Of a DNA stretch of 51,062 bases, positions 5,019 through 15,050 are shown piece by piece. The stretch covers positions 113,284-164,345 of the forward strand of contig NZ_JACSQQ010000001.1 of NCBI RefSeq assembly GCF_014836555.1, in the 5' to 3' direction. Position 1 is the first letter of the stretch. Every line of letters starts with the position of its first letter. The stretch comes from Oerskovia rustica. GTDB taxonomy: Bacteria > Actinomycetota > Actinomycetes > Actinomycetales > Cellulomonadaceae. The notes below the pieces were generated by a model. That model was not told the DNA's origin. It made no database searches and saw only the letters and a program-made list of their open reading frames with translations. Both the position numbers and the translations under genes were made by a program.

Positions 5019-6333
5019 CGGGCACGCTCCGCGCCCCCGCGCGGCGCGGAGCCCCCGCCTCGAATCGCCCGAACGCCAGCACGAGCGCACCGAGCACGAG
5101 CGCGGCCGCGCCGAACCACAGGGGCCGGCTCGCCCACCAGTCGGCGCTCCACGACGCGGGCAGAGGGGTGCCGAGCCCCAGCAGGACCACCCCGAGCACC
5201 ACGAACATCGCGGTCAGGTGCCACAGGTACAGCGTCATGGACCGACCGGCGACCCACCCCACGAGGGCTGCTCCACGCCCCTGCGCCCAGCGCACGACGA
5301 CGTCGCGCACGGCGAGCGCCACGCTCACCTGGAGCACGGCATGGGTCACGGCGAGAGCCGTGGGCGGCCCGAGGTTGGAGATCGCGTCGCCCGGCATCCC
5401 GATGAGGCTCAGGGGGTAGGGACCGACGACGAGGAGGGCAACCATCGCGGCGAGCGCGCCGGTGGCCACGAGGGCGAGCGTGCGCCGGGAGGGCAGCGCG
5501 TCACGCCGGACGAGGTCGACGTAGACGATCCCCAGGACGTAGGGCACGGCCCAGCCGAGCAGGACGTTCGCGACGGCCACGTGCTCGACGCCCGCCCCGA
5601 AGCGCAGCACGTCCACGACGAACGGCGCGGCGACGACGACCACGACCATGCGCCAGCCCCACACCTGGTAGGCCCGCAGCAGGGCAGGGGTGACTGCGAG
5701 CAGCAGCAGGTACACCCCGAGGAACCACAGGAGCTGCGGCGCGATCCGGGCGACCTGCAGCACGGCCGTCTCCGGCACGCCTGCGGCGACCAGCACGACG
5801 GCGGCCACGGCCCACGCACCGACGAAGGCCGCGACCGGCTTCCAGATGCGCGGCATCCGGCGCCGCACGACGTCCCGTCCGGCCGCGACGAGACCCCGTG
5901 CGGCGCCCTGGCGACCTGCCGCCGGGAGGCGAGCGGCGCCGTCGGGCCCGTTCGCCGTGCCCGGGCGCCAGAGCTGGTACGCCGCCGACGCCCCGGCCGC
6001 GAAGAACAGCAGCGGCAGGACCTGCAGGACCCACGTGATCGTCCACGCCCCGCCGTGGGCCAGGGCGTTGCCGATCCCGAGGCGCTCGCCGTCCCACGTG
6101 ACCTCGGGCATGAGCCAGTGGACGCTCAGGACCGCGAGGGTCGCGAGCGCGCGCACCGCGTCGACGAACACGTCGCGCCGGGCGGGTGCACCCGCGACGG
6201 CCCGACGGCGGGGCGCCGGCGCCGGGCGAAGGGCCGGCGGCGCCGCAGCGAGGGGGGACGGGCGGGCGGGCCGGGACGGACGGGGTGTCCGGGCGGGCCG
6301 GAACGGAAGACGAGGGACGTCGACGACGGCCAC
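4930..6333 (-). CDS. Acyltransferase family 3 (AT3) membrane protein
   Basis: The 467-residue protein has a Pro/Arg-rich cytoplasmic N-terminus (about 55 residues), then the AT3 signature RRDVFVDAVRALATLAVLSVHW with the catalytic-type histidine, and about ten hydrophobic helices ending in an Ala/Pro-rich tail. AT3 proteins move acyl groups to sugars or lipids across the membrane. The substrate here is unknown and the gene is not beside glycan genes. GTG at 6333 has GAGGAG about 6 bases upstream. Upstream lie a GAGACT -10 and a palindrome shared with the two-component operon, suggesting that operon's regulator may control it. Confidence 0.85.
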   Translation of the reverse strand: MAVVDVPRLPFRPARTPRPSRPARPSPLAAAPPALRPAPAPRRRAVAGAPARRDVFVDAVRALATLAVLSVHWLMPEVTWDGERLGIGNALAHGGAWTITWVLQVLPLLFFAAGASAAYQLWRPGTANGPDGAARLPAAGRQGAARGLVAAGRDVVRRRMPRIWKPVAAFVGAWAVAAVVLVAAGVPETAVLQVARIAPQLLWFLGVYLLLLAVTPALLRAYQVWGWRMVVVVVAAPFVVDVLRFGAGVEHVAVANVLLGWAVPYVLGIVYVDLVRRDALPSRRTLALVATGALAAMVALLVVGPYPLSLIGMPGDAISNLGPPTALAVTHAVLQVSVALAVRDVVVRWAQGRGAALVGWVAGRSMTLYLWHLTAMFVVLGVVLLGLGTPLPASWSADWWASRPLWFGAAALVLGALVLAFGRFEAGAPRRAGARSVPVSSGGRAPSTAGGAASRPAPGRARVPAGR

Positions 6334-7219: not shown

Positions 7220-8695
7220 CTACACCCTGCTCGGCAGGACGACCGTGACCACGGTAGGCCCACCGACCGGGCTGACGAGGTCCAACGTGCCGTCGACCGA
7301 ACGAACCCGCTCCTCGAGGCCAGCGAGCCCCGACCGGTGGCCGCGCGCGTCGGGCGTCGAGATGCGCGCACCGCCCTGTCCGTCGTCGCGCACGCGCAGG
7401 CGCAGCCGCGAGCCCTGCTCCTCGACGAGCACGTAGACGCCCGAGGCGCGCGCGTGCTTGGCGGCGTTCGTCACGAGCTCGGCGACGCAGAAGTACGCGA
7501 TCGTCTCGACGGCCGGCGACGGCGTGATGCCCGGGTCGACGTCGACCGTCACAGGCAGCGGGGACCTGGCCGCGAGCGTCTCGAGGGCGACCGCGAGGCC
7601 GTTGTCGAGCGCGGGCGGGTGGATGCCCCGAGCGAGCTCGCGGAGCTCGACGAGCGCCTCCTTGGTCGACGCGTGCGCATTGTCGACGAGCTCGAGGGCC
7701 TCGGACGCGTCGCCGCCCGCCGCAAGCTGCTCCTTGGCCTCGCCGAGCTGCATCGCCACCGCGACGAGCCGGGCCTGGGTGCCGTCGTGCAGGTCGCGCT
7801 CGATGCGGCGCAGCTTGGCGTCCGCGTCCTCGACGGTCTTGCCGCGGGACTTCTCGAGGTCGGCCACGCGCAGGCTCGCCCGGGTGGGGCCGAGCAGGTT
7901 GACCGACAGGAGGCGGAAGAGCTGCGCGAACCCGCGCACGAGCTGCGGCCACAACCACCACAGCGCGATGCCCACGGCCGCGAGCGCCGACTGGCGCAGC
8001 GGGGTGTCGACGTACCAGTCGGTCCCCATCTGCGCGCCGCGGTGCCACGTGCCGTCGGCGGCCATCTGCGCGGGCAGGAACTGCGACCAGAACCAGTGAG
8101 TCGCGGCCCCCAGCGAGACGAGGAAGAACGTCACGGACACGACGAAGGCGACGAGCGCCAGGAAGAAGCTCACGAACATGAACGTCATGGCCCGCCACCC
8201 GGGACCGTCCGACAGGTTCGACCAGAGCATGCGCCAGAACCCGCGGCGCGGCGTGTGCGGCGTGGGTGGCAGCACGTCGACCGACAGCATCGAGCGCGCC
8301 ATCGAGCGGTACATGCCGCCCCAGCCGCGCGCCCCGAGGACCAGGCCGCCCGAGACCACGAGCCCCACGACCGTCACGAGGATCCCCACCGTGAAGCTCA
8401 CGGTGAACATCACGTAGGTGAACGCGAAGGGCGCGACGAACAGCGACAGCCACAGGTAGCCGAACTCGCGCCAGGTCTGGCGCGCGAACGGCGCGGCCAG
8501 GAAGCCGACCGGCTCGCGCAGGTCCACGTAGCGCGGGTCGAGCCCGTCGGGGACGTGCCGCAGGTCGCCGGCGGGTTCGGCCGGCTGGGTCTCGAAGGAC
8601 AGGAGAGGCTCGGTCGGCGGCGCGTACCCGGGCGAGGGTTCGCCGTCGGGCGCGGCGTCGCCGAGCGGCGGCTGGGGGGATGTCACAGCAGACAT
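7220..8695 (-). CDS. Sensor histidine kinase with PF13796-type sensor domain
   Basis: The 491-residue protein has a Pro-rich cytoplasmic N-terminus, a membrane sensor module with about four to five helices (residues 60-260), a HisKA_3 dimerisation segment RIERDLHDGTQARL with H303, and an ATPase domain (N-box with N410 in AELVTNAAKHA, G1 DDGQGG, G2 GHRSGLAGLEER). It should autophosphorylate H303 and pass phosphate to D57 of the adjacent regulator. The stimulus is unknown. ATG at 8695 is preceded by CAGGAG about 10 bases upstream. A second GGGGGGATGTC half-site lies inside the first codons (8674-8684). Confidence 0.95.
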   Translation of the reverse strand: MSAVTSPQPPLGDAAPDGEPSPGYAPPTEPLLSFETQPAEPAGDLRHVPDGLDPRYVDLREPVGFLAAPFARQTWREFGYLWLSLFVAPFAFTYVMFTVSFTVGILVTVVGLVVSGGLVLGARGWGGMYRSMARSMLSVDVLPPTPHTPRRGFWRMLWSNLSDGPGWRAMTFMFVSFFLALVAFVVSVTFFLVSLGAATHWFWSQFLPAQMAADGTWHRGAQMGTDWYVDTPLRQSALAAVGIALWWLWPQLVRGFAQLFRLLSVNLLGPTRASLRVADLEKSRGKTVEDADAKLRRIERDLHDGTQARLVAVAMQLGEAKEQLAAGGDASEALELVDNAHASTKEALVELRELARGIHPPALDNGLAVALETLAARSPLPVTVDVDPGITPSPAVETIAYFCVAELVTNAAKHARASGVYVLVEEQGSRLRLRVRDDGQGGARISTPDARGHRSGLAGLEERVRSVDGTLDLVSPVGGPTVVTVVLPSRV

Positions 8696-8734
8696 GGTGG
8701 CAGGACTCCTGGGTCTGGTTCGAGCGGTACCACC

Positions 8735-8740
8735 AGTCTT
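8735..8740 (-). promoter_or_regulatory. Candidate -10 (AAGACT) of the kinase-regulator operon
   Basis: The minus strand reads AAGACTGGTGG, sharing AGACTGGTGG with the acyltransferase promoter. The palindrome centre at 8793.5 is about 53 bp upstream of this box, a usual distance for an upstream activator site. Confidence 0.4.
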
Positions 8741-8784
8741 GCCGACCGGAGTCCGCGCGCCCAGGGTGCGCTCCGCCGTCGTGC

Positions 8785-8802
8785 AGGGGGGATGTCCCCC
8801 CT
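8785..8802 (+). promoter_or_regulatory. Perfect palindrome AGGGGGG-ATGT-CCCCCCT
   Basis: Seven-base arms flank the same ATGT core, in the same orientation, as the palindrome at 6444-6461. It lies 90-107 bp upstream of the kinase start and 12-29 bp after the stop of the upstream membrane-protein gene. Operator and terminator are both possible readings. Confidence 0.5.
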
Positions 8803-8813
8803 CTGCGGCGTGC

Positions 8814-10265
8814 TCAGCGCGCGACGGGCGTCGCGGCCTCCTCCTCGGCGGAGCCCTCCTGCTCCGTGGAGCCTCCCACCCCGACGGCGCCGCCCGGCCC
8901 CTCCGGTCCGGTCGCCCTCGCTGCACCGCGGGCCGGCGCGGACACCACCTGGATCGCGACCACCAGGACGGCCGCGACCAGCGCGATGACCAGGATCGTG
9001 CTCCCGCTCGGGTAGCGCGAGAACACCAGGACGGCCAGCGCCCCGGCCAGGACGAGCGCGATCAGCGGCCAGCGCAGCCTCGCGACCCAGACCTCGAAGG
9101 GGTGCGGGGGGCGCCCGCTGTCGCCCGCGTGGCCGCGGCTGGCCGCGCGCACGAGCCAGTTGAACCCGCCGCGCACCGCGACCGCCGACCGGCTGGGCCC
9201 CGTGAGGTACGCGGCGAGCACGACGACCACACCGAACGCGAACACCGCGCGCAACGACGTGCGCAGCGGGACCAGCACCGCGTCGATCAGGGCCGTCGCC
9301 GCCGACGGCGACAGGGCGTCCGACGGCACGGCGCCCAGGTACAACGACCGGCCGACCGTGATGGCGATCGCGAGGATCGCCATCGCGACGACGTACGTGA
9401 CGCCCGCGAGGATCACGGCCCGGCGACGCCGCCCGCGCGGGGCCGCCCACACCGCGCCGGCCGCGACGAGGAGCGAGAGCCACGGCAGGACGTTCGCCGC
9501 CTTGCTCAGGGCGGCCACCGCACGCTGCGCCGTCACGACGTCGTCCGAGGTGAACAGCACGAACTGCGGGTTGATCGACGGCAGGTTCTCGACGAACGTG
9601 AAGCCCCGCGCCGAGAGCCGCTTCGTGACCTCGTCGATCATGGGCCCGAGCGAGAGCGTGACCTGGCCGTTCGCGTCGGCCGTGACCGCCGTGCCGCCCT
9701 CGCCCGTGAGGACCGAGACGAGGTTCTTGTGAGCCTGGCGGTTCGCGACGATCCACAGCTCCTCGAACGTCGGCGACGTGACCATGCGGTCCACGGTCGA
9801 GCGGACGAACGACTCGCCCTGGCTCGCGAGGAGCGGGGCCAGGCCCTGCACCTGAGGTGGGACCTGGTCGACGTTCTGCGTGAGCGTCGCGAGCGCCTGC
9901 GTCGTCACGGTCTCGAGGTCGATCCGCTCGAGGATCGCGTCCGAGACCTTGGTGCTGATCTCGGCCTGGATCGCGGGGTCCGAGCCCAGCGGTGTCACGG
10001 TCGCGACGTAGTGGTCCGTGTCGAGGATCTCGCCGCGCACGTACCGGGCGACGACCGAGCCCAGCATGAGGACCCCCGCGAGCACCAGGAGCACCGTGAC
10101 GGCGGTCCAGCGGAGCCACCCGCCGCGGCGGGGCGCCGCGTCGGGGACCGTCCCGGAGGGCGGGGCGGGGCGCTCGGCACGCAGGCGCCGGACCTCCGCA
10201 CGCAGGGCCTCGAGCTCTGCTCGTTCGGAGTCGCTGATCGTGGGCTCGCTCGGGATCGTCGCCAT
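8814..10265 (-). CDS. Large integral membrane protein, unknown function
   Basis: The 483-residue protein begins with a charged coiled-coil-like helix (SDSERAELEALRAEVRRLRAE), then a membrane helix near residues 50-72, a long extracytoplasmic domain (about 75-240, with LDTDHYVATVTPL), and four to five further helices. The C-terminus is an acidic Gly/Glu-rich tail. Similar proteins are annotated only as hypothetical membrane proteins in actinobacteria. ATG at 10265 has AGGAGA about 6 bases upstream. The 22-bp array at 10322-10431 lies just upstream of its promoter, so that array may regulate it. Confidence 0.8.
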   Translation of the reverse strand: MATIPSEPTISDSERAELEALRAEVRRLRAERPAPPSGTVPDAAPRRGGWLRWTAVTVLLVLAGVLMLGSVVARYVRGEILDTDHYVATVTPLGSDPAIQAEISTKVSDAILERIDLETVTTQALATLTQNVDQVPPQVQGLAPLLASQGESFVRSTVDRMVTSPTFEELWIVANRQAHKNLVSVLTGEGGTAVTADANGQVTLSLGPMIDEVTKRLSARGFTFVENLPSINPQFVLFTSDDVVTAQRAVAALSKAANVLPWLSLLVAAGAVWAAPRGRRRRAVILAGVTYVVAMAILAIAITVGRSLYLGAVPSDALSPSAATALIDAVLVPLRTSLRAVFAFGVVVVLAAYLTGPSRSAVAVRGGFNWLVRAASRGHAGDSGRPPHPFEVWVARLRWPLIALVLAGALAVLVFSRYPSGSTILVIALVAAVLVVAIQVVSAPARGAARATGPEGPGGAVGVGGSTEQEGSAEEEAATPVAR

Positions 10266-10296
10266 CGTCTTCTCCTGTCGGCGCGCTGCTGGGACC

Positions 10297-10302
10297 ATCC
10301 TT
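10297..10302 (-). promoter_or_regulatory. Possible -10 (AAGGAT) of the membrane-protein gene
   Basis: The minus strand reads AAGGAT about 32 bases before the ATG at 10265. The first unit of repeat array A begins 20 bp upstream (10322). The ahcY promoter and array B have almost the same spacing. The box itself is weak. Confidence 0.3.
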
Positions 10303-10321
10303 GCGCAGGAGTGCCGGAAGC

Positions 10322-10431
10322 GCCCACGGTGGCGTGCCCATCCGCCGAGGGCGACGTCCCCGACCCCCGAGGGTGACGTGCCCACCCGCCGAGGGCGACG
10401 CGACGCCCCGCCCAGGGCGACCGCACGCGAA
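10322..10431 (+). repeat. Array A: five tandem 22-bp units, core GCCGAGGGYGACG
   Basis: Units begin at 10322, 10344, 10366, 10388 and 10410, exactly 22 bp apart. The first 13 bases of each unit fit GCCGAGGGYGACG, with the outer units degenerate. The last 9 bases vary more, often CCC-rich. The period is not a multiple of three, so the array is not coding. It fills most of the 234-bp gap between ahcY and the membrane-protein gene. Confidence 0.85.
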
Positions 10432-10499
10432 GGGCCGGGCTCCTCCCGGAACCCGGCCCTCCGCCGTCGGGCCCCCTGCTCAGGGGCGCTCGCGACCGC

Positions 10500-12032
10500 T
10501 CAGTAGCGGTAGTGCTCCGGCTTGTACGGCCCCTCGACCGGGATGCCGAGGTAGTCCGCCTGGCTCTTCGAGAGCTCGGTGAGGCGCACGCCCAGCGCGT
10601 CGAGGTGCAGGCGCGCGACCTTCTCGTCGAGGACCTTGGGCAGGCGGTAGACCTGGCGCTCGTACGTCCGCTCGCCCTCCGGGCGCTTGCTGTCCTCGAA
10701 GAGCTCGATCTGGCCGATGACCTGGTTCGAGAACGAGTTGCTCATCACGAACGACGGGTGGCCCGTCGCGTTGCCCAGGTTCAGCAGGCGCCCCTCCGAC
10801 AGGACGATGATCGAGCGGGCCTCCTCGCCGTCGGCCGCCGGGAACGTCCACTCGTGCACCTGCGGCTTGATCTCGGTGCGCGTGATCCCCGGGACCTGGG
10901 CCAGTCCGGCCATGTCGATCTCGTTGTCGAAGTGACCGATGTTGCCGACGATCGCCTTGTTCTTCATCGCCGTCATGTGCGCGGCAGTGACCACGTCCTT
11001 GTTGCCCGTGGTCGTGATGAAGAAGTCGGCCTCGCCCAGGACGTCCTCGATGCGCGCGACCTGGTAGCCGTCCATCGCGGCCTGCAGCGCGCAGATCGGG
11101 TCGACCTCGGACACGATGACGCGCGCGCCCTGACCGCGGAAGGCCTCGGCCGCGCCCTTGCCCACGTCGCCGTAGCCCGCGACGAACGCGACCTTGCCGC
11201 CCATGAGGACGTCCGTCGCGCGGTTGATGCCGTCCGGCAGCGAATGACGGATGCCGTACTTGTTGTCGAACTTCGACTTGGTGACCGAGTCGTTGACGTT
11301 GATCGCCGGGAACAGCAGCTCGCCCGACTCGGCGAGCTGGTACAGGCGGTGCACGCCCGTGGTCGTCTCCTCCGTCACGCCGAGCAGCTGGTCCGCGACG
11401 GCGGTCCAGCGCAGCGGGTCGGCCGCGAGCGCCCGGCGCAGGACCGAGCGCACGACGTTCATCTCGTGCGTGTGGTCGGGCTCGCCCGGCAGGGTGTCCG
11501 GGGGGACGGTGCCGAGGCGCTCGTACTGCAGCCCCAGGTGGACGAGCATGGTCGCGTCGCCGCCGTCGTCGAGGATGAGGTTCGCCCCCTCGGCGCCGTT
11601 GCTGCCCGGCCACAGCAGGATCTGCTCGGTGCAGTCCCAGTACTCCTCGAGGCTCTCGCCCTTCCACGCGAAGACCGGGACGCCCTGGGGGTCCTCGGGC
11701 GTGCCGTGCGGGCCGACGACGATCGCCGCGGCGGCCTCGTCCTGCGTCGAGAAGATGTTGCAGCTCGCCCAGCGCACCTGAGCTCCGAGCGCGACGAGGG
11801 TCTCGATGAGGACGGCCGTCTGGACGGTCATGTGGAGCGAGCCCGCGATGCGCGCGCCCGCGAGCGGCTGCGACGCGCCGAACTCGGCCCGCAGCGCCAT
11901 GAGCCCGGGCATCTCGTGCTCGGCGAGGCGGATCTGGTGGCGTCCCGCTTCGGCGAGGGACAGGTCTCGGACCTTGTAGCGGCCGGGGACCTCGTCGAAC
12001 GAGGCCTGGGCGGCGGGCGTGGCAGAAGACAT
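10500..12032 (-). CDS. ahcY: S-adenosylhomocysteine hydrolase
   Basis: The 510-residue cytoplasmic enzyme splits S-adenosylhomocysteine into adenosine and homocysteine, removing the product inhibitor of methyltransferases. Visible features are the NAD-binding motif GYGDVGKG (residues 287-294), the substrate region [13 protein letters not shown] (248-260), GHFDNEIDM (367-375), the actinobacterial-type insertion around residues 195-230, and the invariant HYRY end. ATG at 12032 follows GGAGCACC; the open frame upstream is repeat DNA and not conserved protein. A TAGTCT -10 lies at 12068-12073. Phased 22-bp repeats flank it on both sides. Confidence 0.98.
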
Positions 12033-12067
12033 GGTGCTCCGAACGACGGTTCTGACGGTGTCGCTCC

Positions 12068-12073
12068 AGACTA
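12068..12073 (-). promoter_or_regulatory. TAGTCT -10 box of ahcY
   Basis: TAGTCT on the minus strand predicts a transcript start near 12061 and a leader of about 29 bases with GGAG near the start codon. Repeat array B begins 21 bp upstream of this box at 12094 and occupies the -35 and upstream activator region. Confidence 0.5.
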
Positions 12074-12093
12074 CCGGGGGCGGCTCGCCGCGC

Positions 12094-12203
12094 GCCGACG
12101 GTGACCACCGTGGGAGCCGAGGGTGACGGACCTGTCTGCCGAGGGTGACCGGCAGGGGTGCTGAGGGGGCCCGCAACCTGCGCCGACGGGTGAGGCCGGG
12201 CTC
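12094..12203 (+). repeat. Array B: five 22-bp units, forward orientation
   Basis: Units start at 12094, 12116, 12138, 12160 and 12182. The two best units (12116, 12138) carry GCCGAGGGTGAC followed by G or C; units 1, 4 and 5 are degenerate. Orientation is the same as array A, so the array points away from the ahcY promoter in the same geometry as array A does from its neighbour gene. Confidence 0.8.
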
Positions 12204-12239
12204 TCGTCGGGGAGCAGCGGGCCCGACGGCGCCGCTCAC

Positions 12240-12349
12240 CGTCGCCGTCGGCGCACCAGTGCGTCACCCTCGGCGCACCGGCGTGTCACCCTCGGCGGGC
12301 GGGAGCGTCACCCTCGGCGTCGAGGAGTGTCACCCTCGGCGTCAGCACC
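12240..12349 (-). repeat. Array C: five 22-bp units, inverted relative to array B
   Basis: On the plus strand the core reads YGTCACCCTCGGC, at 12240, 12262, 12284, 12306 and 12328, again with an exact 22-bp period; a very degenerate sixth unit may sit at 12218. Arrays B and C converge, so about 250 bp form a large imperfect inverted repeat. It ends about 40 bp before the promoter-like AT-richer DNA of the betaine operon. Confidence 0.85.
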
Positions 12350-12388
12350 AGATCAACAGTTCGCGCCCGCGCGCGATAACAAATCTGC

Positions 12389-12418
12389 TTGACCATATCA
12401 AGGTCACGAAGCGATAAC
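12389..12418 (+). promoter_or_regulatory. Candidate promoter and operator of the betaine operon
   Basis: TTGACC (12389-12394), an 18-bp spacer and GATAAC (12413-12418) form a plausible promoter in the only AT-richer stretch nearby. The -35 overlaps imperfect dyads (CTTGA..TCAAG and TGACC..GGTCA). The word GGTCAA recurs at 12431-12436 and 12462-12467, and its complement is the -35; the offsets of 42 and 31 bp are near whole helical turns. A GCGATAAC direct repeat occurs at 12373 and 12411. Confidence 0.5.
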
Positions 12419-12777
12419 GATCCCGTGAATGGTCAAAACCGCGCGCTTTCAACGATTGTACGGTCAAGCATCTCCCTCGAAACCGCCATGCACACCGGCC
12501 ACTCGGTAGCAATTCGCCCTGGGATCGGGCAGGGTGCTGGAGACAGATCGACCTGTCCAGGGCCGGCTCGCGCCGACCCCACGACAGGTCAGCGCCCGCT
12601 GCGCCTCGCGGCGGCCACCCACCCGGGTGGCCCCCGGCGGCGGGCCTCGATCCGGTGGACCGTGACGCGCCTCGCGGCGCTGAGCGCACCGGGAGGTCGC
12701 AGCCAGGTCACCCTGGCGCCCTCCGCGGAGCGTTCCGGACCCGCCACGACACCTGGAAGGTGGCGAGACCCGCCAGC
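12419..12777 (+). other. Long leader of the betaine operon, no gene found
   Basis: About 360 bases separate the candidate promoter from the first start codon. I see no convincing coding frame and no riboswitch consensus that I recognise. It contains a perfect 8-bp hairpin with a 4-base loop at 12613-12632 and a 13-bp direct repeat GCGCCTCGCGGCG at 12601-12613 and 12667-12679. The length and structure would permit RNA-level control, but nothing proves it. Confidence 0.5.
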
Positions 12778-14178
12778 ATGACCGCAAGCAGCACCAGCAC
12801 GAGTACGAGCACCGAGCCACCTACGAGCACCGCCCCCGTCCTCATCCCCGTGGAGACCGAACCCTTCCCCGGCGCCCACGGCACCGACCCCCTGCCGGAC
12901 GACCGGCCCGTGGCCGTGAGCGTCCAGGGCGTCTACAAGGTCTTCGGCCGCCGCCCGCAGGAGGCCGTCCGGCGACTCAAGGACGGCGCGGGCCGCGCCG
13001 ACGTCAAGTCCCTGGGGACGGCCGCCGTCATCGACGCGAGCTTCGACGTCAAGCAGGGCGAGATCTTCGTCGTCATGGGCCTGTCGGGCTCGGGCAAGTC
13101 GACGCTCATCCGCATGCTCAACGGCCTGTGGAAGCCCACGGCCGGCCACGTCCTCCTGGGCGACGACGACCTCGCGACGGTGAACGCCAAGCAGCTGCGG
13201 GCCCTGCGGCGCAGCCGCGTCAGCATGGTGTTCCAGCACTTCGCCCTGCTCCCCCACCGCACGGTCCTGGACAACGCGGCGTACCCGCTCGAGATCCAGG
13301 GCATGGGCAAGGCCGAGCGCCGCGAGAAGGCGCAGCAGGCGCTCGACCTCGTGGGCCTGGGGGGCTGGCAGGACTCGCTGCCCTCGCAGCTCTCGGGCGG
13401 CATGCGCCAGCGCGTGGGGCTCGCCCGTGCGCTCGCCGCGGACACCGACGTGCTGCTCATGGACGAGGCGTTCTCCGCGCTCGACCCGCTCATCCGGCGC
13501 GAGATGCAGGAGCAGCTCCTCGACCTGCAGCAGACGCTCGGCAAGACCATCATCTTCATCACGCACGACCTCAACGAGGCCATGCACCTGGGCGACCGGA
13601 TCGCCGTCATGCGTGACGGCCGCACGGTCCAGATCGGCACGGCCGAGGAGATCCTCTCCGACCCCGCGAACGACTACGTCGCGCAGTTCGTCGCCGACGT
13701 CGACCGCACCCGTGTCCTGACCGCCGCGTCGGTCATGGTCCGGCCGACCGCGGTCGTCCCGCTCGGCGGCGGCCCCCGCGTCGCGAGCCGCACCATGCGC
13801 GAGGCACAGGTGTCGGCGGCCTACGTCGTCGACCGTCAGCGCGTCCTGCGCGGCGTCGTCCGCGACGCGGACGCGGTCGCGCTGCTCAAGTCGAGCGGCG
13901 ACCACGCCACGAGCATCGAGTCGATCGTGCACGACGGCGTCGCTCCCGTGAGCGTCGACACCCCCCTCGCGGAGCTCTTCGCGCCGGCGGCCGAGTCTCC
14001 TCTGCCCGTCGCCGTGACGGACGACAAGAACCGCCTGGTCGGGGTCATCCCGCGCGTGACCCTGCTCGAGGCCATGGTGCCGCCCACGCTCGAGGAGCCC
14101 GACGCCGTCGGGCAGGACACGACCGAGGACGCACCCGCCCCGCAAGACACCACCTCGACGGAAGGAGCAGACGCGTGA
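12778..14178 (+). CDS. proV: Glycine betaine/proline ABC transporter ATPase with CBS tail
   Basis: The 466-residue protein is a ProV/OpuAA-type ATPase energising osmoprotectant uptake. It has Walker A GLSGSGKST (101-109), Q-loop Q153 (VFQHFALLPHRTV), signature LSGGM (205-209), Walker B VLLMDE (225-230) and H263. A C-terminal CBS-like region (about 300-430) is typical of ProV proteins that sense ionic strength. The first 45 residues are an unusual Ser/Thr/Pro-rich, repetitive extension. ATG at 12778 has no strong ribosome site, so an internal start near the ATPase domain remains possible. The stop overlaps the next start by GTGA. Confidence 0.92.
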   Translation: MTASSTSTSTSTEPPTSTAPVLIPVETEPFPGAHGTDPLPDDRPVAVSVQGVYKVFGRRPQEAVRRLKDGAGRADVKSLGTAAVIDASFDVKQGEIFVVMGLSGSGKSTLIRMLNGLWKPTAGHVLLGDDDLATVNAKQLRALRRSRVSMVFQHFALLPHRTVLDNAAYPLEIQGMGKAERREKAQQALDLVGLGGWQDSLPSQLSGGMRQRVGLARALAADTDVLLMDEAFSALDPLIRREMQEQLLDLQQTLGKTIIFITHDLNEAMHLGDRIAVMRDGRTVQIGTAEEILSDPANDYVAQFVADVDRTRVLTAASVMVRPTAVVPLGGGPRVASRTMREAQVSAAYVVDRQRVLRGVVRDADAVALLKSSGDHATSIESIVHDGVAPVSVDTPLAELFAPAAESPLPVAVTDDKNRLVGVIPRVTLLEAMVPPTLEEPDAVGQDTTEDAPAPQDTTSTEGADA

Positions 14179-15050
14179 GCGCCACCGACACGTTCGTCCC
14201 CCGCCTGCCCCTCGGTGACTGGGTCGCCGTCTTCGTCGAATGGTTGACCGCGACGTTCAAGCCGTTCTTCGCGGTCGTCAAGGACGTCCTGCTGGGCTGC
14301 TACGACGCTCTCGCAGCGGTGCTCCAGGGCCCGCCCTTCCTCGTCGTCGCACTCGTGCTCGCAGCCCTGGCGTTCTTCGCCAAGGGCTGGAGGCTGGGCG
14401 TCACGGCCCTCGTCGGGTTCGTCGTGATCGCGAGCGTCGACCAGTGGGACAACGCCATGGACACCCTGGCGCTCGTGCTCGTCGCGAGCGCGATCGCACT
14501 GCTGATCGGCATCCCGCTGGGCATCTGGGCCGCCCGCAACGACACCGTCTCGCGGGTCCTGCGCCCCGTGCTCGACTTCATGCAGACCATGCCCGCGTTC
14601 GTGTACCTCATCCCGACGGTCATCATCTTCCTCACGGGCGCCGTCCCGGGCATCGTCGCGACCGTCGTGTTCGCGCTCGCTCCGGGTGTCCGCTTCACCG
14701 AGCTGGGCATCCGCCAGGTCGACCGGGAGGTCGTCGAGGCCGGGCACGCGTTCGGCTCCACGCCGGGCCGCATCCTGCGCCAGATCCAGCTCCCCCTCGC
14801 GATGCCGACCATCATGGCGGGCGTCAACCAGGTCATCATGCTCTCGCTCTCGATGGTCGTGATCTCCGGCATGGTCGGCGCGGCCGGCCTGGGACGCGAC
14901 GTGGTCGCGGCCCTCCAGCGGGTCAACATCTCGCTCGGCTTCGAGGCGGGTCTGTCCGTCGTGATCCTCGCGATCTTCCTCGACCGCGTGACGTCGGCCC
15001 TCAGCACCCGCTCGCCTGTCGCCAAGGCCCTCGCGGCCACCGCCGTCTGA
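14175..15050 (+). CDS. proW: Glycine betaine/proline ABC transporter permease
   Basis: The 291-residue protein has about six to seven membrane helices and the MetI-like EAA-type loop (VVEAGHAFGSTPGRILRQIQLPLAMPTIMAGV) that docks onto the ATPase. FMQTMPAFVYLIP and GMVGAAGLGRDVV are typical of the ProW/OpuAB family. It starts at GTG 14175 and overlaps the ATPase stop by 4 bp, so the two are translationally coupled. Together with the binding lipoprotein downstream it makes one importer. Confidence 0.95.
   Translation: MSATDTFVPRLPLGDWVAVFVEWLTATFKPFFAVVKDVLLGCYDALAAVLQGPPFLVVALVLAALAFFAKGWRLGVTALVGFVVIASVDQWDNAMDTLALVLVASAIALLIGIPLGIWAARNDTVSRVLRPVLDFMQTMPAFVYLIPTVIIFLTGAVPGIVATVVFALAPGVRFTELGIRQVDREVVEAGHAFGSTPGRILRQIQLPLAMPTIMAGVNQVIMLSLSMVVISGMVGAAGLGRDVVAALQRVNISLGFEAGLSVVILAIFLDRVTSALSTRSPVAKALAATAV

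Follow-up and report, generated by a model that had tools for sequence, protein, structure and literature searches.

A dispersed family of phased 22-bp repeat arrays in Oerskovia, with three members around ahcY

Three short repeat arrays surround ahcY in the 51,062-nucleotide stretch of the Oerskovia rustica genome analysed here (the window). They are part of a family of phased DNA arrays scattered through Oerskovia genomes, present in six of the seven genomes of the genus that were examined and rare elsewhere in the samples searched. Each unit consists of a core, C-GCCGA[G/C]GG[T/C]GAC-G, and a spacer of 9–10 bp, such that a word of 12–13 letters recurs every 22 (sometimes 21) letters. We favor, at a probability of roughly 45%, an iteron-like phased platform that would be read by an Oerskovia protein, with units multiplied by recombination and with no role as a regulator of ahcY. 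A literature search of open-licence papers returned no description of such arrays.

Results

Arrays at the ahcY locus

The first-pass annotation described three arrays totaling 15 units at an exact 22-bp pitch. The three arrays and the pitch stand (Table 1), but only 13 units qualify when a unit is counted at ≤3 mismatches in the 13-mer with Y allowed at position 9; the copies at 12160 and 12182 are in phase with Array 2 and too degenerate to count (4 and 5 mismatches). Exact matches to GCCGAGGGYGACG account for 5 of the 15 units originally claimed. That Array 3 runs in the opposite direction to Array 2 went unmentioned in the annotation. The window has 14 copies of the 13-mer at ≤1 mismatch, where shuffles average 2.17 and reach at most 7, and 25 dinucleotide shuffles of the window contained 0 arrays each.

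Table 1 Features of the ahcY locus, in window coordinates
Feature	Position	Strand	Description
Array 1	10322..10421	+	Five units, at 10322, 10344, 10366, 10388 and 10410; between ahcY and the neighbouring gene
Array 2	12094..12149	+	Three units, at 12094, 12116 and 12138; upstream of ahcY
Array 3	12241..12340	− (core strand)	Five units at 22 bp; faces Array 2; upstream of the ABC-transporter gene
ahcY	10500..12032	−	ORF and gene calls; neighbour, outside the element
Neighbouring gene	8814..10265	−	Membrane-like product, judged by eye; no Pfam match
ABC-transporter ATPase gene	12778..14178	+	Pfam ABC_tran and CBS
Hairpin 3' of ahcY	10427..10464	−	Fold, and stretch conserved between species

By our own gene finder all three window arrays lie between genes, with Arrays 2 and 3 in the divergent gap between ahcY (which we take to be the S-adenosylhomocysteine hydrolase gene, as the first-pass annotation also named it) and the ABC-transporter ATPase gene. 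O. turbata has all arrays of the locus at matching places, among them an orthologous Array 1 and a three-unit counterpart of Array 3. Array 1 is partly decayed in genome G095, decayed in G073 and O. douganii (G085), and absent from O. merdavium (G023). The product of the neighbouring gene is 85–92% identical in O. enterophila, O. merdavium, O. douganii, and O. turbata, and 39–50% identical in the ten other loci listed. The hairpin 3' of ahcY is kept also in genomes where Array 1 is absent or decayed, and is likely the ahcY terminator. After ahcY, a short GGGCCCGACGGCGGAG-like stretch (10459-10478, minus strand) recurs near 5830 and 8990 of locus L042 and by some arrays; it may be another dispersed element or part of the terminator.

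In O. turbata (L063:4012-4977) and in G043 (G043:C5:128238-129200), Arrays 2 and 3 are separated by a 321-residue ORF, the two copies being 81% identical. The window lacks this ORF there, and its Arrays 2 and 3 sit close together. The ORF has no match in Pfam (threshold 0.001) or in the PDB (up to E 1), and its two NCBIfam matches, at E 0.13 and E 0.15, fall well short of the cut-offs. It was considered as a driver of the arrays and rejected, given distant relatives in all seven Oerskovia genomes, the array-less one included.

A link between the arrays and ahcY was part of the original claim. Cooperative transcription-factor sites controlling ahcY and other adjacent genes could be phased in this manner, since cooperative binding suits phased sites, and upstream of ahcY a TAGTCT hexamer, which we read as a putative −10 box, stands ~20 bp from the end of Array 2. 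The comparison across species goes against it. O. douganii, O. merdavium, and G073 all keep ahcY with decayed or no arrays, and the arrays therefore do not look like ahcY regulators. Array orientation and distance to start codons are not fixed, and arrays also occur between convergent genes and inside ORFs. We consider regulation of adjacent genes improbable.

The unit, its pitch, and the facing arrangement

Core frequencies were estimated from 100 internal units of the O. rustica genome (G000) as C82-GCCGA[G76/C23]GG[T80/C17]GAC-G71. The bases between cores had been described as variable, and in these units the spacer carries a weak bias to C and G; its letters are nearly free and its length is held. 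Fetched stretches of four genomes, many of them picked for holding arrays, contain 135 arrays and 526 units. Contiguous stretches gave 7 arrays in G000 contig 11 (267 kb), 8 in G095 (400 kb), and 11 in G059 contig 2 (343 kb), with 0 in the reversed-sequence controls, which lose codon structure.

The pitch had been staked on its recurrence elsewhere in the genome, and this claim survives because the phase is conserved there. O. rustica has 143 places with two cores at a 22-bp step (≤3 mismatches) as compared to 0 for the reversed pattern, and 122 exact 13-mers as compared to 5. In the three contiguous stretches, 54 of 62 pairs of same-strand cores lying 14–30 bp apart (≤1 mismatch, summed by hand) are separated by exactly 22 bp, with the remainder at 21 bp (3), 18 bp (3), and 24 bp (2). 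Our array rule admits only steps of 21–23 or 43–45 bp, and this step spectrum and the period scan below were run without that limit. Under the rule, non-coding steps measure 22 bp in 291 of 302 cases, 21 bp in 8, 23 bp in 1, and 43–44 bp in 2; looser clustering also returns steps of 19, 20, 27, 32, 37, 38, and 40 bp. A core-independent scan of periods 14–40 places 22 bp at the top in four of five Oerskovia sets, the set from G095 showing none at 22.

Opposite neighbouring arrays also keep a defined geometry. On part of the stretches above, all 23 such pairs within 300 bp face each other and 0 stand back-to-back. Facing core pairs fall at gaps of 5–8, 26–30, or 49–52 bp in 61 of 93 cases, that is, in register modulo 22; the reversed control has 0 facing core pairs.

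Distribution across genomes

Single cores are weak evidence of an array because the C-variant core also encodes Ala-Glu-Gly-Asp. All distribution counts come from genome samples of the phylum, order, and family. In the family sample, scored at ≤2 mismatches, 14 of 150 genomes were positive and six of these were Oerskovia; the seven genomes of the genus have 264 places in G059, 127 in G000, 86 in G043, 53 in G095, 27 in G073, 7 in G023, and 0 in G085. The eight positive genomes outside Oerskovia have 1 to 4 places each, among them a short array in G035 and two units in G108. Another of the eight, G010, from a second genus of the family, carries facing arrays of a variant core, GCCGAGTGTGACG, at 21–22 bp (L038; G010:C1:294091 and 2534700).

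A three-core GNGYGAC pattern was found in 16 of the 150 family genomes, five of them Oerskovia; six of the other eleven have one place each, and the reversed control has 1 place each in G043 and G025. This pattern also matches a different short tandem repeat, GGGCGACGGC-like with an 11-bp period, at G000:C29:15305-15366. In the phylum sample, two T-type cores (≤1 mismatch) were found in 1 of 396 genomes, O. rustica itself. A relaxed core returned 4 of 297 genomes in the order sample, namely three Oerskovia and a single place in G456. Two exact T-type cores at 22 bp were found in 0 viral contigs. As O. douganii is without a match in the family survey and other species have few, the arrays are dispensable.

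Evolution at orthologous sites

Arrays at orthologous places differ between species by whole units. Intergenic site-length differences fall within 2 bp of a multiple of 22 in 17 of 33 cases (7.5 expected), and coding differences in 2 of 5. Duplicated three-unit blocks are seen in O. turbata.

In three clean comparisons, spacers diverge faster and cores more slowly than neutral proxies. Equal-length arrays of the G000–G059 pair (two arrays) differ at 7 of 132 core and 27 of 89 spacer positions, and those of the G059–G043 pair (one array, counted by eye) at 2 of 48 and 15 of 30. The corresponding G000–G059 proxies are 416 of 3395 (12.3%) four-fold sites of nonribosomal peptide synthetase (NRPS) genes and 1122 of 15758 (7.1%) positions of array-free intergenic DNA. 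A less clean automatic comparison gave core and spacer differences of 24/227 and 34/130 for G000–G059, 4/84 and 19/50 for G043–G059, and 4/24 and 3/10 for G000–G095; for G000–G043, with facing arrays partly misaligned, the order is reversed (12/48 and 3/20). The array-free intergenic DNA has 245 indels for its 1122 substitutions, or 0.22 per substitution, and it is against this rate that a fixed spacer length with free letters stands out.

Similar spacers recur in three genomes above the level of 60 column shuffles, in which neighbour correlations are lost. Between arrays, alike pairs number 24 of 4973 in G000 (shuffle mean 10.4, maximum 23), 51 of 5100 in G059 (22.7, 37), and 12 of 457 in G043 (1.7, 6), and 0 of 41 in G095, which contributes ten spacers. 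Within arrays, pairs with ≤1 mismatch number 4/77, 25/153, 11/39, and 0/4 in the same four genomes. There is thus some support for copying between arrays.

These data bear on a serious rival to the platform reading, namely a selfish or neutral interspersed minisatellite that spreads by recombination, slippage, or template switching and has no host function. On this view the cores resemble each other because only matching cores can exchange, or because copying picks out the well-matched units. Recurring spacers and the duplicated blocks of O. turbata are in line with this view, as are a copy number that runs from 264 to 0 within one genus and arrays in NRPS reading frames and in gaps of every orientation. 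Whole-unit copying alone, however, leaves divergent spacers with constant cores and constant spacer length unexplained, and does not account for facing pairs in register. We regard selfish or neutral spread as a substantial minority possibility.

Position relative to genes

The arrays had been described as intergenic. This holds in the window, but arrays elsewhere also lie inside ORFs. Of 98 arrays placed (hand count), 66 are between genes (14 divergent, 14 convergent, 38 tandem), 25 are within predicted ORFs, 6 lie over an ORF edge, and 1 is unclassified; the sample is partly array-chosen, some of the 25 ORFs have low scores, and distances from the home-made gene finder are approximate. Of the 26 arrays in the three contiguous stretches, 2 are within ORFs and 3 at an ORF edge. 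Arrays occur in both orientations and some are antisense to genes, and with divergent, tandem, and convergent gaps all represented, a tie to one gene class finds no more support than a tie to ahcY. Beside a PALP+CBS-domain gene, the array at L043:17733-17803 (G000:C11:249733-249803) has an unusually conserved spacer, CGCCACCnAy, in G000, G023, G043, and G095, and with changes in G059.

Many arrays start at gene ends, and 7 of the 98 have their predicted stop codon in the TGA of the first core. Facing arrays could be pictured as long RNA hairpins that end or protect transcripts. Ten stretches were folded against approximate shuffles. Four facing stretches fold at z −4.4 to −13.9, with Arrays 2 and 3 of the window together at −9.8, and Array 3 alone reaches −2.8. 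Single-direction arrays, on the other hand, fold no better than shuffles (z −0.8, −0.8, −0.4 for Array 1, and 0.3 for Array 2), so that a hairpin above shuffles is not a property of all members among the ten stretches. Arrays also occupy divergent gaps and run antisense to genes, and ahcY has a hairpin of its own. Additionally, Rfam gave no match at gathering score across window positions 8000-15000. An RNA-level element is, in our estimate, very improbable.

Arrays inside reading frames

NRPS genes of G000, G059, and G043 hold stop-free arrays (in G000 with Pfam Condensation, AMP-binding, PP-binding, and Thioesterase matches). Depending on direction, the encoded peptides read AEGDxPARRGRPxxxPTVTD or HPRRxGxSPSAGxxVTLGG. 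An NRPS cluster with in-frame arrays is present in at least three species (L040:1-16001, L175, L177), some arrays lying within or beside condensation and adenylation domains.

Several length changes in these frames follow the unit. The G000–G059 comparison shows two NRPS array gaps of exactly 22 residues, which is three units or 66 bp, and a third of 23 residues, and one NRPS site differs by 66 bp between G073 and G043 (102 and 168 bp). Other coding length differences, which partly include flanking linkers, are less regular (0, 12, 24, 27, 29, 48, 52, and 69 bp). Units of 21 bp are also used: L254 has ten in an ORF, encoding a seven-residue repeat, and in-ORF arrays combine four 21-bp steps and one of 22 in L261, three and one in L052, and four of 21 near 1226 of G059 contig 2. 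Three NRPS sites were compared across five species. At two of them the shorter forms (G000, G073, and G095 at site 2; G073 at site 3) are without an array and have at most one core-like sequence, which suggests that the NRPS arrays grew from a seed, with loss as the alternative.

Inside ORFs it is the DNA word that is conserved and not the peptide. Of the 44 Gly codons in in-frame cores, 36 are GGT, as compared to 4117 of 38722 Gly codons overall (10.6%) and to 4 among 44 motifs outside arrays that encode a similar peptide. Detection of in-frame cores took T and C equally, with GGA and GGG scored as mismatches. The in-frame units of one array are related by duplication, and the codon count is therefore made up of non-independent events. 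Nonetheless, retention of this rare codon leads us to conclude that the DNA word, and not the peptide, is kept.

Comparison with known systems

Plasmid iterons are the nearest working parallel for a phased platform, should the analogy hold. Iterons of R6K and pPS10 are 22 bp long and bound by Rep initiators, come as two to seven units, and are bound cooperatively and sequence-specifically in a manner dependent on helical position, an added half-turn between two iterons abolishing the cooperativity (PMC4980987). Both kinds of element are direct repeats at about two helical turns. Unlike iterons, the Oerskovia arrays number dozens on the chromosome, have nearly free spacers, face each other, and enter reading frames. 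No initiator or origin was found, and the dispersed chromosomal places argue against a replication origin.

With REP and BIME elements the arrays share short length, abundance, places often behind genes or within some of them, close opposite units, and CGTC at one core end. REPs are palindromes of 20–40 bp; those of the CGTC super-family have an 8–9 bp stem and a 4–5 nt loop and are without a linked transposase, and Actinobacteria are not among the phyla given for them (PMC3733652). The Oerskovia units differ in standing head-to-tail at a fixed pitch and in having no such stem: Watson–Crick stems at the best candidate loop average 1.64 bp over 354 units (0.78 with shuffled spacers), 139 units have none, and 1 unit reaches 7 bp, the scan maximum. 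Mobilization by a RAYT was rejected, as a profile limited to this transposase family, Y1_Tnp, matched in 0 of 7 Oerskovia genomes and in 5 of 14 control genomes.

Mycobacterial MIRU-VNTR minisatellites likewise vary in unit number between relatives, and some of their units overlap stop codons; the Oerskovia arrays are distinct in their conserved core with free spacer, helical pitch, 22-bp unit, and facing arrangement. Unit number at one locus does vary between relatives in Oerskovia, as in a VNTR. Within an array the cores are alike; of the spacer pairs, only those in the within-array counts above agree to within one mismatch.

The ends of Tn7 and Mu carry transposase sites of ~22 bp repeated near two opposed ends, and facing arrays might similarly be the ends of a mobile element, or a REP-type element, with transposase sites. 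The facing arrangement is compatible with such an origin, and so is the ORF that O. turbata and G043 carry between Arrays 2 and 3. Against it, Y1 transposase (PF01797) is absent from all seven Oerskovia genomes, distant relatives of the ORF occur irrespective of arrays, one C alone is strongly conserved outside the first unit, and lengths change by units and not by insertion of a fixed element. Unlike Tn7 and Mu ends, moreover, the arrays have no terminal sequence, no linked transposase was seen, unit number is variable, and single-direction arrays lie inside genes. We leave a mobile-element origin only a slim chance.

The recognition site of NmeAIII is GCCGAG. An MmeI/NmeAIII-type (type IIL) enzyme was rejected as a candidate; matches are found in three of seven genomes (G023, G059, G085), over the cut-off in G023 only, and no MmeI-type methyltransferase was found in G000, G043, G073, or G095.

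REP/BIME habits without RAYT and stem, VNTR-like variation in unit number, and RNA structure only when arrays face each other lead us to class the family as variant dispersed phased repeats.

Discussion

The earlier proposal of a protein-binding platform can be kept in part. The phase is conserved and a phased platform at the DNA level is favored here too; the tie to ahcY and the rule that arrays are intergenic are dropped. Steps of 21 and 22 bp are both close to two helical turns. Because these steps dominate, facing pairs are in register, and a rare codon is retained, we infer a reader of double-stranded DNA that works on one face of the helix. Our searches found no reader protein for the cores. 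Also weighing against a platform are the dispensability of the arrays, the decay of cores at the ahcY locus in G073 and G085, the less clean automatic comparison, the limited share of intergenic length differences that fit the unit (17 of 33), and the off-pitch steps within clusters.

In the iteron-like reading, an Oerskovia DNA-binding protein would dock on each core, two helical turns apart and on one face of the DNA, and the docked proteins would build a nucleoprotein platform much as initiators do on plasmid iterons. Arrays would arise from core-like seeds, and lengthen or shorten by recombination or slippage between cores. They would settle where harm is small: behind stop codons, between genes, and in loops of NRPS proteins. 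Their job would be architectural or general, with no particular control of ahcY.

A more far-reaching version, which we hold to be unlikely, is that one sequence-specific protein system of Oerskovia reads the arrays and also multiplies them, measuring two helical turns from a core such that new cores are fixed only at 21–22 bp. If true, the arrays would be a self-extending chromosomal platform that rewrites its spacers, even in NRPS frames, and preserves its own word. Such a phased repeat would be of a new kind, distinct from a transposon, REP, iteron, or plain minisatellite.

The arrays are also a natural experiment, in which rare-codon retention and in-frame steps of 66 bp and 21 bp separate constraint at the DNA level from constraint at the protein level, a separation that in our judgment is seldom possible for bacterial repeats. 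The array-poor sister species let the gene of a putative reader be looked for by presence and absence. If a protein does read the arrays, Oerskovia has a chromosome-wide nucleoprotein system defined by its pitch.
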